Source of the DNA: Planctomycetota bacterium
GTDB taxonomy: Bacteria; Planctomycetota; Phycisphaerae; Phycisphaerales; SM1A02
Assembly (NCBI GenBank): GCA_022564665.1
Contig: JADFKZ010000001.1
Coordinates: 1-64,000, forward strand
DNA: 64,000 bases
Direction of reading: 5' to 3'
This document shows, one piece after another, positions 7,398 through 64,000 of the stretch; within the stretch, counting starts at the first letter, position 1; each line of letters starts with the position of its first letter. The notes under the pieces were generated by a model. That model saw only the letters and a list, made by a program, of their open reading frames with translations. It did no database searches and was not told the origin of the DNA. The position numbers were made by a program, and so were the translations under genes.

Positions 7398-7617
7398 AGG
7401 TGTGCTCGATCCCGGATCAATCCTCGGTCGGCGTCGGTGGTCACGTCTGGTCAGGACCAGCCCAAGCGACCGGCCGGCGGCGCGTGCGTCGGTCGAACCT
7501 CGCTGTGACAGCCTGCCCCCGCCCCACGATACGCTTGGAGAACCTGGCGGCAAACGGCGAGCCGGGAAGTATATCGGCCTGCCTGCGGCTGACAAGCCAC
7601 CCAACTATATTCGAGCG

Positions 7618-7685
7618 CGCCGTAGCGGCCTCCGGCCGCACACTCGCTCTGGCGGCTACGGAGCGCTCTAAACAGCCCGCCACCT
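7618..7685 (+). repeat. E-family repeat, minimal copy (no internal hairpin units)
   Basis: The infA-secY gap (7398-7688) contains a short E element reduced to its ends. These are CCGTAGCGGCC at about 7619 and GGCGGCTACGGAGCGCTC at 7653-7670, followed by TAAACAGC. The right end matches the copies at 24.9 and 62.9 kb, and CACACTCGCTCTGGCGGCTAC is shared with the copy at 21.3 kb. The rest of the gap (7398-7617) shows no gene. It is the place where adk and map usually lie. Confidence 0.65.
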
Positions 7686-20467: not shown

Positions 20468-21199
20468 ATGAGGCCGGCAGACTTCAGTCAGGCTTTGGGG
20501 TTGTGCTCATTGGCGGCGATCGGCGGGTGCGCAGGTCTGTCGCCGCACCGCCCGGGGCCGGGGTTCGAGCAGCTCGAGACCTTGCCAGCGACCGGCAAGG
20601 TCTCCGTCGACGATCTGTATCCCACACGCAGCGGTCGCTGGTCCTACTTGGTCACCGCCGGCGACAACGCCGGCGAGGAGGTGGTCATCCGCCGGGTCAA
20701 CACCTTGGGCTTTGCCACCACCTGGGTCGACGCGCCCGGTGAGAGCCGGGGCGAGTTCTGGAGGCTCGATGACGACGGAAACGTCACCCTCGAGGCGGTG
20801 GTGTCATACGCCCGAGCGACGATCAGCCTCTTCGAGCCTCCGCTGGTCGTCGCCTACGCCGGCCTCGCCCCTGCCACACCCCGCCGCCATGAGGTGGCGA
20901 TGGAGGTGGTGGACCTGAACAACCCGGCCCGCCGAAAGACCTACGGCACCGCCACGATGACGATCGAGTACGTAGACGACCGAAGGCTGAAGACGCCCCT
21001 GGGCGAGCTCGTCGCCAAACGGGTCGTCGTGAGCTTCGAAGCAGACCTTTCGCTCGCGGACGTCACCCGGACCACGACGACCTATGTGGTCGCCGGGCTC
21101 GGCCCAATCGTCATCGAGTGGCAGGAGGACCAAGTGATGCTCAAGGTCATACGCACCAGGAAACGGCGGACGTTGGTGCTTAAGAAAGTCACAGAGTGA
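20468..21199 (+). CDS. Predicted lipoprotein of unknown function
   Basis: A 243-residue protein starting at ATG 20468 (MRPADFSQALGLCSLAAIGG), with the lipobox-like LAAIGGC placing Cys at residue 21, so it is probably a membrane-anchored lipoprotein. The mature part has GRWSYLVTAGDNAGEEVVIR, a repeated Thr-rich beta pattern (TRTTTTYVVAGLGPIVIEWQ) and a basic end (RTRKRRTLVLKK). The pattern GLGPIVIEWQ resembles end strands of uncharacterised beta-sandwich lipoproteins, but I recognise no family. It follows the exported protein at 19075 by seven bases and probably works with it. Confidence 0.65.
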   Translation: MRPADFSQALGLCSLAAIGGCAGLSPHRPGPGFEQLETLPATGKVSVDDLYPTRSGRWSYLVTAGDNAGEEVVIRRVNTLGFATTWVDAPGESRGEFWRLDDDGNVTLEAVVSYARATISLFEPPLVVAYAGLAPATPRRHEVAMEVVDLNNPARRKTYGTATMTIEYVDDRRLKTPLGELVAKRVVVSFEADLSLADVTRTTTTYVVAGLGPIVIEWQEDQVMLKVIRTRKRRTLVLKKVTE

Positions 21200-21207
21200 G
21201 AATGTCT

Positions 21208-21395
21208 TGAGCGCTCCGTAGCGGCCTCGCAGCGTCGCGGCGTCCTTGCCGCTCTTGTTTGGCAGCCCTGCGGGCTGCGGGGCCGCTCTTGTTTGGCAGC
21301 CCCCCGGGCTGCGGGCCGCACACTCGCTCTGGCGGCTACGCGGCTGATTCAATCGGCCGCTTCGCTTTGACACAATCTGCGAGTAGACCTTTACC
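21208..21395 (+). repeat. E-family repeat with two hairpin units
   Basis: Between convergent genes ending at 21199 and 21432. Left end GAGCGCTCCGTAGCGGCC; two internal units GGGGCCGCTCTTGTTTGGCA each followed by a GCAGCCC...GGGCTGC palindrome; right end ACACTCGCTCTGGCGGCTAC, then GGCCGCTTCGCTTTGACA and CAATCTGC. A CIR fragment (CCCTGCTCTTTTTTCCGCGG) follows immediately at about 21398-21431. Confidence 0.8.
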
Positions 21396-24708: not shown

Positions 24709-24723
24709 CGAGAAGAAGTCTAT

Positions 24724-24910
24724 CGCAGGTTGCGTCAAAGCGTAGCGGCCGATTGAATCGGCCGCGTAGCCACCAGAGCAAGTGTGCGGCCCGCAGCCCG
24801 GAGGGCTGCCGAACACGAGCGGCAAGGATGCCCCGCAGCCCGGAGGGCTGCCAGACAAGAGCGGCAAGGATGCCGCGAGGCCGCTACGGAGCGTTCGAAA
24901 CAGTTCTCGT
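24724..24910 (-). repeat. E-family repeat, reverse orientation, two hairpin units
   Basis: In this copy the ends read TTGCGTCAAAGCGTAGCGG at 24730 and CCGCTACGGAGCGTTCGAAA at about 24881-24900, followed by CAGTTC. The interior has AGCAAGTGTGCGGCCCGCAG, then two units with palindromes GCAGCCCGGAGGGCTGC. It lies between two same-strand genes, one of the few non-convergent E copies. Confidence 0.8.
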
Positions 24911-31589: not shown

Positions 31590-31707
31590 GTGGCTGTCGG
31601 CTGTCGGCGCCGTGCAGAGGGGAACAGGGTTCGGGGTTCGGGGTTCGGGAAAGCTCCGAGCCCTGAACCATGAACCCTGAACCCCTGAACCCTGATCCCC
31701 TGTCTTC
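31590..31707. repeat. CIR fragment with long inverted repeat
   Basis: Between gmhB and waaF. GGGTTCGGGGTTCGGGGTTC (about 31629-31648) faces CCCTGAACCATGAACCC and TGAACCCCTGAACCCTGA (about 31661-31697), and CAGAGGGGAAC faces GATCCCCTG. The arms can pair almost throughout, giving a large hairpin. GGCTGTCGGCTGTCGGCG at 31595 is a CIR module. No gene is seen in it. Confidence 0.7.
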
Positions 31708-37819: not shown

Positions 37820-37844
37820 GATCAAAAAGAGGCTTTTTCTAGGG

Positions 37845-38117
37845 CTGTTTCGATCGCTCCGTAGCGGCGTCGCGGCCTCCTTGCCGCTCTTGTTTGGCAG
37901 CCCTTCGGGCTGCGGGGCCGCTCTTGATTGGCAGCCCTTCGGGCTGCGGGGCCGCTCTTGTTTGGCAGCCCTTTGGGCTGCGGGGCCGCTCTTGTTTGGC
38001 AGCCCTTCGGGCTGCGGGGCCGCTCTTGTTTGGCAGCCCTTCGGGCTGCGGGCCGCGCACTCGCTTCGTCGGCTTCGCGGCCCATCGAAGAGGCCGCTAC
38101 GCTTGGACGTAAACGGG
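37845..38117 (+). repeat. E-family repeat with five tandem 34-bp hairpin units
   Basis: The longest E copy, filling the gap between plsY and a convergent gene. The left end is TTTCGATCGCTCCGTAGCGG; the right end is GAGGCCGCTACGC. Five units start at 37887, 37921, 37955, 37989 and 38023, period 34, each with CTCTTGTTTGGCAGCCC (second unit CTCTTGATTGG; third CCCTTTGGGCTGC) and the palindrome GCAGCCCTTCGGGCTGC. A flanking segment GCACTCGCTTCGTCGGCTTC resembles the right part of other copies. Confidence 0.9.
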
Positions 38118-38118
38118 G

Positions 38119-39402
38119 CTAGTCTTTTGCGATCGCGACCGGCAAGAGCACGATCGTGTCATCCCCCTCCGCCCGGAGGGCAGCGACAGCTGCCTGAACC
38201 TGCCGCCACTGGGCGACCCAGCCCCTGGCTTGGTCATCTTCCTGGGCGCTCCCGCTGGGCCGGGCATCGGTGGCCGGCGACAACATCCTGAGCCGTGTTG
38301 CATGCCCCTGCGTTACCCCAAGACGCCCAAGCAATGCTCGTAGCTCGCCAAGCGGTATGGAGATGGTGTAGCCAGCGCCATATTCGGAGAACGCAAGCTG
38401 TTGCTGGAAGCTGGGCGCCAGCTCGGGCGTACCCAGAAGCTGCTTGCTCAACAGGATCTGCTTCTCCTGCCGCTGGCCGTGAGAGTCCTCTGCCAGCCGC
38501 CGCAGCCGCTGGGAGATCTCCCGCAGGGTCCTCAGGCCGGGCTCCGGGGGCGCGGCGGCGGCCACATCACCCGCCCGCACCTCGGCTGGCGGCTGACCAG
38601 GGGCGAATCTCTCACGCTGCCACTTCTCCGTAAGCAGCTGGACCTCCTCCCAGTCGAGGTTTCGCGTCAGCGCCGTGCGTGGGCCCAGGTCCCTGAGGCT
38701 TGAGCGCAGGATCTGCTCGGCGCGGCGGGGCTCTGCGACCTCAAGCTCCAGAGCGAACGTCAAGGCCATCAACCGAGGATGAGCGTCTGGATCCTCAGGT
38801 GGCCTCAGTGTGTCGGCGCTGCGGTCGCCACCGGCCACTGCAACCTCGAGGGGCGCGTGGTGATGGATGACGCCGCCGGGCCCCGGCCCAAGACGTTGGG
38901 AGCCTTCGCCAGCCACGAGCGACTGCGATTCGGACGGTGGGCCACCGCCCCCGGCCCAGCGGTCGCCCGATGCCGTTTCCGCGTCGCGCTGGCGGCCCTC
39001 CGGGCTGCGGGCCAGCTCCCGCTCGTCCACCCCGCCAGCTTGCCCTGGGGCCCAACTGAGAACCGCCCACAGCCCGCCCACCAACGCGACCCCCAGACCC
39101 GCGGCGACGGGCAGGGCCCACCGCCGCCGGTGGGCCCGCCGCCGGCGAAACTCACCAGGCGGCCCCATCAGGATCGGCCGCACCATGAGCGGCTCGAGCT
39201 CAGCCACCAGATCGACGTCAAGTGAGGGAACAGGCTCCGACCGCAAAATCTCCCGATCAGCCTGCAGCCGCTCGATACACTCCACGGCTCCGGAATGGGC
39301 GCCAAGACGCCGTCGGAGCTGCTCGGCAGCCCCGGGGTCGAGTTCGGCTTCGATGAGCGCCAGCAACTGGGCCTCTTCGAATTGATTATCAAAGATCGTC
39401 AC
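38119..39402 (-). CDS. Putative anti-sigma factor for the neighbouring ECF sigma
   Basis: A 427-residue protein starting with GTG at 39402; its start overlaps the sigma stop by three bases (GTGA), so the two are coupled. An N-terminal soluble part with LIEAELDPGAAEQLRRRLGA resembles anti-sigma/helical bundle domains of Planctomycetes. A single hydrophobic segment around residues 98-118 (ALPVAAGLGVALVGGLWAVL) is followed by a long Gln/Arg/Glu-rich region of about 310 residues. There is no zinc-finger HxxxCxxC motif. The anti-sigma role is inferred from position and topology. Confidence 0.65.
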   Translation of the reverse strand: MTIFDNQFEEAQLLALIEAELDPGAAEQLRRRLGAHSGAVECIERLQADREILRSEPVPSLDVDLVAELEPLMVRPILMGPPGEFRRRRAHRRRWALPVAAGLGVALVGGLWAVLSWAPGQAGGVDERELARSPEGRQRDAETASGDRWAGGGGPPSESQSLVAGEGSQRLGPGPGGVIHHHAPLEVAVAGGDRSADTLRPPEDPDAHPRLMALTFALELEVAEPRRAEQILRSSLRDLGPRTALTRNLDWEEVQLLTEKWQRERFAPGQPPAEVRAGDVAAAAPPEPGLRTLREISQRLRRLAEDSHGQRQEKQILLSKQLLGTPELAPSFQQQLAFSEYGAGYTISIPLGELRALLGRLGVTQGHATRLRMLSPATDARPSGSAQEDDQARGWVAQWRQVQAAVAALRAEGDDTIVLLPVAIAKD

Positions 39403-50177: not shown

Positions 50178-50909
50178 GTGATCTCCAGACGCCTCATCGT
50201 GCTCGTGGCTTTGGCCGGGGCGGTCGCGATCGCGGCAGGAGTGTGGTGGATGTCGTGGTTGGCGCCGACGTGGTGGGTCGCGCCGGAACCACTTAACCAG
50301 CGGTGGATCGACCTCGCCGGTCTCGTGGAGAAGCGGCTGGCCCAGGAAACGCACCGCAAACGCACCCCCGGCACCTCGTGGACGATCCGCCTGCGCGAGC
50401 AACAGCTCAACGCGTGGCTTGCGACCCGTCTGCTGCCGTGGGTCGCCCATTTCGGATCCGACGGGAACGAGACGATCGACTGGCCCTCCGCGGTCGGACC
50501 GCCACAGGTGCATCTGTCCGAGGAGGGGCTCAGCGTGGCCGTGGAGATGGTCACGGGCGGCCGGTCACGCTTCGTCGAGGCGCAGGCAACACCCAAGATG
50601 TCCGACGGCGGGCTCCAACTGAACCTCAAGGGCACCCGCCTGGGACGGGTCCCGATCCCTAGAAAGCCGGGCCGCCAAGTGCTCCGGCTCCTGGGCACGA
50701 TGACATCCGCGACATTCGTCGAGCATCCCATGCTCAAGCATCTGGTCCAGATTGCAGACGGCCGAGAGCCGATCAACCCCACGCTTACGCTCGCCGACGG
50801 GCGGACCGTCCGGCTCACCGCGATCCGATGCGGGAAGGGCTTCCTCGATCTGACCCTCGAGACCCTCCCCCCAACGTCCAAACCAAGACCCGGGGCTCAC
50901 AACCCATAA
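50178..50909 (+). CDS. Membrane-anchored protein of unknown function
   Basis: A 243-residue protein from GTG 50178 (MISRRLIVLVALAGAVAIAA), with an N-terminal anchor at residues 5-22. The rest is soluble, including TSWTIRLREQQLNAWLATRL, GLQLNLKGTRLGRVPIPRKP, VLRLLGTMTSATFVEHPML. The open frame extends upstream to 50133 but that part is CIR repeat. The C-terminal residues PPTSKPRPGAHNP are at the start of a simple-repeat tract. No domain is recognised. It is 50 bases upstream of the AddB-like gene. Confidence 0.65.
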   Translation: MISRRLIVLVALAGAVAIAAGVWWMSWLAPTWWVAPEPLNQRWIDLAGLVEKRLAQETHRKRTPGTSWTIRLREQQLNAWLATRLLPWVAHFGSDGNETIDWPSAVGPPQVHLSEEGLSVAVEMVTGGRSRFVEAQATPKMSDGGLQLNLKGTRLGRVPIPRKPGRQVLRLLGTMTSATFVEHPMLKHLVQIADGREPINPTLTLADGRTVRLTAIRCGKGFLDLTLETLPPTSKPRPGAHNP

Positions 50910-50955
50910 CCCATAACCAAAAACCAAAACCCAAAACCCAAAACCCAAAAACCTC
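50901..50955 (+). repeat. Heptamer-type simple tract at the AddB-like gene start
   Basis: Tandem 7-base units: AACCCATAACCCATAACC then CAAAACC repeated about five times (AAAACCCAAAACCCAAAACC). It covers the stop of the upstream gene and stops five bases before the ATG at 50960. Such tracts can vary in length between strains. Confidence 0.7.
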
Positions 50956-62029: not shown

Positions 62030-62125
62030 GCTCAGGCAAGGCGACCGATCAGCGGCGGCGGATGAATTCGCCGCCGCGTACCACAGCGAGTGTCGACCCG
62101 GAGGGCCGTACGGAGCGCTCAAAAC
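62030..62125. repeat. E-family fragment
   Basis: ACGGAGCGCTCAGGCAAGG at about 62019 and CGTACGGAGCGCTCAAAACAG at 62107-62127 are E right-end-like sequences; CGAGTGTCGACCCGGAGGG between is a decayed interior. It sits between the IscA-type and phosphoribosyltransferase genes, both on the plus strand. Confidence 0.55.
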
Positions 62126-62137
62126 AGTCCTGGTGCC

Positions 62138-62803
62138 ATGTTCGCCAACCGTCTGGAAGCGGGGTGTCAGCTTGGCCGGAGGCTTGAGCACCTTTCGGGC
62201 CAGTCGGTCATGGTTCTGGGGTTGCCACGGGGCGGTGTGATCGTGGCGGCGCAGATCGCCGAGGCCCTTAGCGCCCCCCTCGATGTGCTCGTCGTCCGCA
62301 AGCTTGGGGCCCCCCTCCAACCGGAGCTTGCCATCGGCGCCGTCACCGACGGAGATCAACCCCAGCAGATCTTCAACGACGAGCTCATCGACAGGCTTGC
62401 GGTCAGCCGCGAGTACCTCGACCGGGAGATCCAGTGGCAGCTGGCGGAGGTCCGCCGCCGCCAGGAGCTCTACCGCGGGGGCCGGCCGGCGGTGAAGATC
62501 CTGCAGCAGACCGTGATCGTCGCAGACGACGGCATCGCCACCGGGGCCACGGTGCGGGCCGGCATTCAGGCGCTCCGCGGCAACGGTGCTGCGAGAATCG
62601 TCCTTGCGGTCCCCGTGGCTCCGCTCCAGGTGGCGCAGTCACTGCGTCAGGAGGTGGACGAGCTGTTGTGCCTCCAGACACCGGCATCGTTCACCGCCGT
62701 CGGCGCCTTTTACGGCGATTTCCGCCAGGTAACCGACAAGGAGGTCATTGACACGCTTCAGAGGGCGGCCCAGCGGCGACACGAGGGCTGTCCGCCGAGC
62801 TAG
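62138..62803 (+). CDS. Phosphoribosyltransferase family protein
   Basis: A 221-residue PRTase-fold protein from ATG 62138 (MFANRLEAGCQLGRRLEHLS). The PRPP-binding motif VIVADDGIATGATVR is at 126-140, preceded by LPRGGVIVAAQIAEAL and followed by VAVPVAPLQVAQSL. This is the family of small, often predicted, phosphoribosyltransferases (Rv0571c-like) rather than Upp or Apt. Substrate is unknown. It is followed by an E repeat and the ketoacyl synthase. Confidence 0.85.
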   Translation: MFANRLEAGCQLGRRLEHLSGQSVMVLGLPRGGVIVAAQIAEALSAPLDVLVVRKLGAPLQPELAIGAVTDGDQPQQIFNDELIDRLAVSREYLDREIQWQLAEVRRRQELYRGGRPAVKILQQTVIVADDGIATGATVRAGIQALRGNGAARIVLAVPVAPLQVAQSLRQEVDELLCLQTPASFTAVGAFYGDFRQVTDKEVIDTLQRAAQRRHEGCPPS

Positions 62804-62805
62804 CG

Positions 62806-62977
62806 CAGATTGCGTCAAGTCGTAGCGGCCTTTTTGATAGGCCACGTAGCCGCCAGAGCGAGTGTGCGGCCCGCAGCCCGAAGCGCTTCCAGACAAGAGC
62901 GGCCCCGCAGCCTGGAGGGCTGCTGAACTAGAGCGGCAAGGACACCGCGACGCCGCTACGGAGCGCTCGAAACAGCT
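62806..62977 (-). repeat. E-family repeat, reverse orientation, between convergent genes
   Basis: Read on plus: GCAGATTGCGTCAAGTCG at about 62811 and CGCTACGGAGCGCTCGAAAC at about 62954-62973. The interior has AGAGCGAGTGTGCGGCCC and two hairpin units (GCAGCCCGAAGCGCTTCC, degenerate; GCAGCCTGGAGGGCTGC). It runs right up to the stop of the synthase gene at 62978, so its right end almost touches coding DNA. Confidence 0.8.
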
Positions 62978-64000
62978 CTATTCTTCAAACCTCTTCACGA
63001 TCAACGTATCGTTCTGGCCACCAAAGCCGAATGAGTCCGACAGGCACACGTCCACCTTCGCCTGCCGCGCGGTGTTGGGGACATAGTCCAGATCGAGCTT
63101 GGGATCGGGGTCGGTGAGGTTGCTCGTCGGCGGCAGCACGTGGTTCCTGATTGCCAGAACGCAGGTGATCAGCTCGACCACCCCCGCCGCCGCGATCAGG
63201 TGGCCCATCATCGACTTGATCGAGCTGACGGGAATCCTGGGGGCATTGGGGCCGAAGACCCTCTTCAGCGCCAGGGTCTCGACGGAATCATTCTCCAGAG
63301 TTCCCGTTCCGTGGGCGGAGATGTAGTGGACCGGCGGTCGCCCGTCGGAGTCGACGCTCAACGGGTCGAGACCGGCGTCGTTGAGGGCTTCGCGGATTGC
63401 CGCCGCGGGGCCACGCCCCTCGACGTGCATGTCGGTGATCCGAAATGCATCGGCGCTGGAGCCGTAGCCGATGATCTCCGCCAGGGGCGTCGCCCCGCGG
63501 GCGCGGGCGTGCGCAAGCGTCTCCAGCACGACGATCCCCGCCCCCTCACCCATTACAAACCCGCTCCGCTTGCGGTCGAAGGGCCGCGAGGCGCGGGTGA
63601 TGTCACCTTTGGCCCTCGACAACGCCGTCAGCCGTATAAACCCGGTCACGCCCAGGACGTGGATCATGGTGTGCGTGCCGCCGGAGATCATGACATCGGC
63701 GTCACCGCGTCGCAGCATGTCGACCGCCTCGCCGATCGCCTGCGTGCTGGCGGCGCACGCGGTCAGGCAGTTGTACGCGGGGCCCCGGATGTCGTACTCC
63801 CGCGCGATGTGGCTCAACGGCATGTTCGGCTCCTGCGCGATCTCGCGCCAGGGATCCATATGCGCGCACGCGGCGGCCGCCCAGCGTTGCGTGTCGACCC
63901 TCCCCTGCTCAGAATCCCAGGCCGACACGTCCACACGGGCATAGGTGTCGAAGTCCAGCACCCCCTCGCCCGCGCCGAGGTAGATCCCGACGCGACGATG
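62978..64000 (-). CDS. Beta-ketoacyl-ACP synthase (FabF/FabB family), 5' end off the window
   Basis: Condenses acyl-ACP with malonyl-ACP in fatty acid synthesis. The visible 340 residues start in mid-gene (RRVGIYLGAGEG reads through the window edge), so the true start is beyond 64000. Catalytic Cys is in YNCLTACAASTQAIGEA; the two His in HYISAHGTGTLENDSVE and MMGHLIAAAGVVEL; SFGFGGQNDTLIVKRF ends it. These are FabF hallmarks. A type II elongation or a specialised ketosynthase cannot be told apart here. Confidence 0.9.
   Translation of the reverse strand, partial: HRRVGIYLGAGEGVLDFDTYARVDVSAWDSEQGRVDTQRWAAAACAHMDPWREIAQEPNMPLSHIAREYDIRGPAYNCLTACAASTQAIGEAVDMLRRGDADVMISGGTHTMIHVLGVTGFIRLTALSRAKGDITRASRPFDRKRSGFVMGEGAGIVVLETLAHARARGATPLAEIIGYGSSADAFRITDMHVEGRGPAAAIREALNDAGLDPLSVDSDGRPPVHYISAHGTGTLENDSVETLALKRVFGPNAPRIPVSSIKSMMGHLIAAAGVVELITCVLAIRNHVLPPTSNLTDPDPKLDLDYVPNTARQAKVDVCLSDSFGFGGQNDTLIVKRFEE

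Follow-up and report, generated by a model that had tools for sequence, protein, structure and literature searches.

The window, that is, the whole stretch of 64,000 nucleotides analyzed here, carries at 37839-38121 a complete copy of a repeat that we denote the E element, with inverted ends, two hairpins and an interior array of short tandem units. Genes were called with a simple script based on codon usage, and the stop codon TAG of the convergent gene 38119-39402 comes from the right-end CTAG of this element. The parts of the element are the following:

37839-38121, plus strand: complete element, flanking CTAG at both ends counted; left end CTAGGGCTGTTTCGATCGCTCCGTAGCG, right end (reverse complement) CTAGCCCCGTTTACGTCCAAGCGTAGCG
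37839-37866, plus strand: left terminal inverted repeat, 28 bp; 15 of the 24 positions outside CTAG agree with an IS630 end, a score found in 0.01% of background positions
38094-38121, minus strand: right terminal inverted repeat, 28 bp; again 15 of the 24 positions outside CTAG agree with an IS630 end
37852-38065, plus strand: conserved hairpin GAGCG-CTCCGTA-[stem]-ACACT-CGCTC, here GATCGCTCCGTA ... GCACTCGCT, the apical part of which holds the units
37883-38056, plus strand: five tandem 34-bp hairpin units (CCGCTCTTGTTTGGCAGCCCTTCGGGCTGCGGGG); 5.1 copies with 96% matches according to TRF
38077-38097, plus strand: second hairpin, GCGGCC-loop-GGCCGC, adjoining the right end

The preliminary description had placed an element with 34-bp units at 37845-38117, and it is present there as described, although its real borders are slightly wider and include CTAG at both ends. 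The five units attributed to the array agree with the TRF period and copy number, and the inverted ends reported at the time proved to form an inverted repeat that is imperfect and exactly 28 bp long, CTAG-nnCnGTTT-n10-GTAGCG, the blocks of which are common to both ends. The DNA fold of the window element is stronger than that of shuffled sequence (z -3.9), as is the RNA fold of a second copy of the element (z -4.1), and a search of the window against Rfam at the gathering threshold yielded no matches.

Six loci in the window had been proposed to share their ends. Both end types are found at only four of the six, including 37839-38121, whereas the locus at 7605-7677 consists of two left-type ends facing each other, and a related composite occupies the one at about 62033-62127:

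62800-62980, minus strand: element with two units
24720-24909, minus strand: element with two units at a 42-bp period, the ends altered to CTAT/CGAG
21198-21386, plus strand: two-unit element, left end degenerate
7605-7677, no strand assigned: derivative without units, its two left-type ends inverted relative to each other
62033-62127, minus strand: related composite of a GTAC-type hairpin (GTACGGCCC..GGGTCGACACTCGCT) and a second hairpin GGCGGCGAATTCATCCGCCGCC, lacking both the TTGCGTCAAAG end and any 34-bp units

The two genes that converge on the 62800-62980 element (62138-62803 on the plus strand and one ending at 62978 on the minus strand) each stop on the TAG at one of its ends. Other repeats, noted at window positions 50901-50950 and 31661-31702 and as the k-mers GAACCCCGAACC (50), AAGATTCACCGC (45) and GCTGGGGCTGAG (43), comprise degenerate heptamers of the AACCCAA/CCCTGAA type and two more high-copy sequences.

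The host genome, a fragmented MAG of 3.06 Mb in 226 contigs (91% complete) and the sole genome of its genus in the data, contains about 149 left ends (24-mer, up to 3 mismatches) and 88 matches to the 18-bp unit core (up to 1 mismatch), compared with none in either case for the reversed patterns that served as a control. Thus, the E family is a repeat rather than a product of chance or low complexity; its copies are non-coding and shorter than about 300 bp. For element anatomy and target statistics, 81 stretches totaling 1.2 Mb, including the window, were read, and gave the consensus CTAG-AACTGTTTC-GAGCGCTCCGTAGCGGCC ... GGCCGCACACTCGCTCTGGCGGCTACGCGGCC-loop-GGCCGCTACGCTTTGACGCAAACTGCG-CTAG. 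The number of units over 74 arrays was one (38 arrays), two (30), three (4) or five (2), with a spacing of 34 bp in 39 instances, 42 bp in five and 33 bp in two, and the identity of units inside arrays (0.90) barely exceeded that across arrays (0.875). The range of one to five units per array, as read in one genome, is consistent with the proposed expansion of the element interior by tandem duplication: in the host genome, one to five tandem 34-bp units would have come to occupy the loop of the inner hairpin, their multiplication probably owing to replication slippage or unequal crossing-over. In another genus (genome G058; L115:2683-2790; L127, minus strand, 1450-1540; L233; L234), other parts of the element are tandemly repeated, for instance, a 24-bp unit TTGAGCGCTCCGTAGCGGAGTAGC present three times, and the element family as a whole may be prone to internal amplification.

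No transposase is visible in the window, as stated in the preliminary description, but one with matching ends is encoded elsewhere in the same genome. A DDE_3 search identified an IS630-family IS on contig C188, with 28-bp ends CTAGAGCGGTTTCAGTCAACATGTAGCG / CTAGAGCAGTTTCAGTGATCTCATAGCG and two overlapping reading frames corresponding to HTH_Tnp_IS630 (PF01710) and DDE_3 (PF13358, E about 4.5e-35), of which the DDE region reads open; further copies of the ends of this IS lie at two contig edges. The ends of the E element and of the C188 IS agree in length, in register and in two conserved blocks, the outer nnCnGTTT and the inner GTAGCG. Outside CTAG, the consensus left end of the E element matches that of the IS at 14 of 24 positions, a score found in 5.3e-4 (0.05%) of 341,496 background positions, and the consensus right end matches at 17 of 24, a score found in 2.9e-6 (0.0003%) of the same positions. 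When 790 28-mers starting with CTAG were scored, a second mode appeared at 13-17, made up nearly entirely of element ends. Furthermore, genome G023, which belongs to another genus and carries the full element, has a transposase that is 75% identical and one end of the same pattern. Taken together, these observations make it very likely that the E family is a MITE of the IS630/Tc1-mariner family, with the C188 transposase as its probable mobilizer and CTAG as the target. The original suggestion of a non-autonomous mobile element is supported, and, judging from the sequence of the ends, the C188 IS probably moves the E element. Among orphan ends, no autonomous copy bounded by the E element's own ends was found within 6 kb. 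In genome G027, an IS630-family transposase gene is located inside a tandem array of approximately 72-bp units with the palindrome CCGCCGCTCATGAGCGGCGG (L295:606-2841).

The E element could also be viewed as an IS1182-type MITE, given that CTAG is likewise the site of a second IS in the family: an IS1182-like IS and MITEs with GAGTCTGCGTCAC ends are found at CTAG in G027, in G023 and in the host genome itself. However, the match of these ends to the right end of the E element requires a 2-bp shift, and neither the left end nor the inner GTAGCG block shows one, whereas the IS630 ends are in register at both sides, which makes an IS1182-type origin most improbable. Transposases of the IS4/IS5/IS1182 type (PF01609, DDE_Tnp_1) were also considered as mobilizers and rejected, with IS1182-like and other IS ends being out of register.

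The preliminary description had further likened the repeat to the REP/BIME system, in which GTAG-tagged palindromes are spread by a RAYT (TnpA-REP) HUH transposase. GTAG does stand before a stem in many copies, and the palindromes are extragenic and often located just past stop codons, in keeping with what is described for GTAG REPs (PMC3733652). The host genome even encodes one divergent, IS200-like Y1_Tnp protein of 263 aa with the HVH motif kept (L031:1309-2097, minus strand, contig C213), but this gene is not near any E element. Moreover, none of the 12 Y1_Tnp loci detected in 8 of the 16 element-bearing genomes has an element in the flanking sequence retrieved (up to about 1.5 kb), and genomes G058, G110, G066, G061, G020, G015, G051 and G255 contain elements but no Y1_Tnp match. 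The tag itself also behaves differently: many hairpins have GTAC in place of GTAG, with the partner base changed as well (G-C to C-G), such that base 4 of the tag takes part in pairing rather than being free, and GTAG is the inner block of an inverted repeat, the ends of which fit IS630 instead of a RAYT system. We therefore abandon the REP/RAYT assignment, to which we give hardly any credence.

For the IS630-type MITE, the sequence setting of the ends provides additional evidence. CTAG is approximately tenfold depleted in the 1.2 Mb fetched (397 observed vs 3851 expected from base composition) and strongly enriched at both ends of the element. Exact CTAG adjoins 33 of 94 right ends, with single-base variants accounting for much of the remainder, and degeneracy is greater at left ends, where CTAG is conserved at about 40-55% per base. 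IS630 transposases use TA targets (PMC2170065), and IS630 itself prefers CTAG (Tenzen and Ohtsubo 1991, as cited in PMC2170065). On this reading, the C188 IS630-type transposase would recognize the bipartite 28-bp ends of the E element in trans and insert it by cut-and-paste at the TA inside CTAG, with TA being duplicated and CTAG left at both ends. Because CTAG contains TAG on both strands, genes on either side of such an insertion would keep an intact stop codon. Consistently, the right-end CTAG (or CTAC) is the stop codon of the facing gene in 12 of 48 cases, and a TAG stop in matching register occurs at about 20 of 96 left ends; together with the two genes that stop on the termini of the 62800-62980 element, this is a clear case showing that insertion at CTAG can spare the stop codons of both neighbor genes. 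Nested and tandem copies of the E element exist as well. Head-to-tail tandem elements (L067:11208-11500; L098:4254-4360; L062:1-30) are joined as CTGCG|AACTG, with CTAG missing, a junction that simple TA duplication does not explain.

The exact hairpin pattern, with which 400 genomes of the order were surveyed, is present in 16 of them, spanning 10 genera and two families. In a wider scan of 84,980 named species genomes, the hairpin was found nearly only in Phycisphaerae/Planctomycetota assemblies, and the hits in Deltaproteobacteria, Alphaproteobacteria and Acidobacteriota may represent misbinned contigs or chance matches. A covariance-model search of 294 sampled genomes of the phylum produced matches only in the host genome and in one genus of the same order, with at most 21 candidates scored per genome, for which reason absence is weak evidence. 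In genome G110, from a different family, elements of about 131 bp, extending from CTAGAGCATCTTCGAGCGC to GAATCTGCTCTAG, have the same ends as the E family and are present in approximately 20 near-full-length copies. One of these follows directly after a gene ending GAGLTWGSSLWR, which we take to be fabH-like; the site is empty in six congeners, with 28-40 bp between the genes, and the flanks of the filled and empty sites are only about 75-81% identical. A search of the host genome and its relatives, none of which is a second genome of the genus, identified no near-identical empty site. Despite the many copies of the element in G110, no DDE_3, DDE_Tnp_1 or Y1_Tnp gene was detected in this genome, implying that the mobilizer was lost or is of another kind.

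Several families of short bacterial repeats resemble the E element in part. RUP of pneumococcus, for which similar ends and TA targets led to the proposal of trans-mobilization by IS630-Spn1 (Oggioni and Claverys 1999, as cited in PMC2229807 and PMC3049150), is likewise short and non-coding, with about 100 copies, ends resembling those of a resident IS630-family IS, a folded interior and, as predicted for the E element, a TA target, but is a simple AT-rich element of 107 bp, whereas the E element is GC-rich and modular, sits at CTAG and contains a variable tandem array. Pneumococcal BOX has the organization boxA-boxB(n)-boxC, with the number of inner boxB modules varying between constant ends (PMC3049150). 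The two conserved end modules, variable tandem inner units, stable fold and MITE-like character are similar to those of the E element, a likeness of anatomy only; the ends of BOX have been compared with ISSpn2 rather than with an IS630 element, and each E unit is a GC-rich hairpin of 34 bp nested in a larger one. Terminal TA, inverted ends and a long fold are also features of the Correia elements/NEMIS of Neisseria (PMC2229807), which are MITEs too, but their ends are different and no tandem unit array is reported in that source. GTAG REPs/BIMEs (PMC3733652) share with the E element palindromes in both orientations, an extragenic location and GTAG beside a stem, and differ in that the E element lacks a RAYT link, pairs the last base of the tag and has inverted IS630-type ends. 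Finally, ISY100 and IS630 (PMC2170065) have terminal inverted repeats of about 24 bp, similar to those described here, and a TA target, as predicted for the E element; the C188 IS belongs to the same family, but the E element encodes no transposase. The E family is thus of a known kind, joining a trait of RUP (IS630-type ends) with a trait of BOX (variable units) in different sequences. A search of the open-licence literature found no earlier account of the E family in Planctomycetes and no report of a BOX-like tandem interior for the phylum; with the E family, Phycisphaerae gain a MITE family for which a likely mobilizer can be named.

The inner hairpin is found both within the MITE and apart from it. 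It combines a fixed internal loop with a stem of 5-7 bp, the 34-bp units being located in its loop or apical part. In 37 hairpin sequences from several genera, 97.5% of the cells pair, and 46 double changes were counted vs 17.4 +/- 2.6 in shuffles, in a set where the search pattern largely fixed the flanks of the hairpin but not the stem. Many hairpins of relatives lack IS630 ends. Among 34 classified intergenic hairpin copies in relatives, 27 follow a gene in the sense orientation, many of them 3 nt past the stop codon, and in the host genome the sense:antisense ratio is 68:35 vs 669:705 at random intergenic positions. Hairpins of the form GAGCGCTCCGTA-stem-ACACTCGCT, without IS630 ends, were found in relatives in the sense orientation right after the stops of rplA, rplL, groEL, rpoA and an ahcY-like gene (L115, L116, L117, L186, L208, L209, L225, L226 and L146), the gene names being read from translated gene ends. 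Behind rpoA, the hairpin is present in three congeners, with stems that differ but still pair through compensatory changes, and behind the ahcY-like gene it is present in two families.

The sense placement behind genes, the conservation at rpoA and the ahcY-like gene, and the covariation of the stem would all be expected of a selected functional RNA hairpin, acting in 3' UTRs or between cistrons, the repeats being merely its copies with no transposon involved. Such an RNA-only explanation leaves unaccounted for the 28-bp ends that match those of an IS, the location at CTAG, the nested and tandem copies and the site that is empty in six congeners, and about one-third of the copies in the host genome are antisense to the upstream gene. 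We consider it improbable for the element as a whole, although it may hold for the hairpin alone. With the E element taken as an IS630-type MITE, the hairpins of relatives that lack IS630 ends would be either a captured functional element or old truncated MITEs. We tentatively raise the possibility, itself rather unlikely, that the inner hairpin is an undescribed Phycisphaerae RNA or DNA element with a role of its own at the 3' ends of highly expressed genes (rpoA, rplA, rplL, groEL, ahcY-like), recognized via the fixed internal loop, which an IS630 MITE captured and spread. Its strong conservation right after housekeeping stop codons, together with the compensatory changes of the stem in different genera, makes the hairpin a testable candidate for a new RNA element. 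In the host genome, a 42-bp near-palindrome, CTAGGAGTCCGCGTCGCAGAAGACTGCGACGCGGACTCCTAG, occurs at L054:9282-9324 and L089:10731-10773 as a mini-MITE with ends similar to those of the IS1182-type IS of G027 (L287), and the L089 copy lies inside an E-family hairpin.
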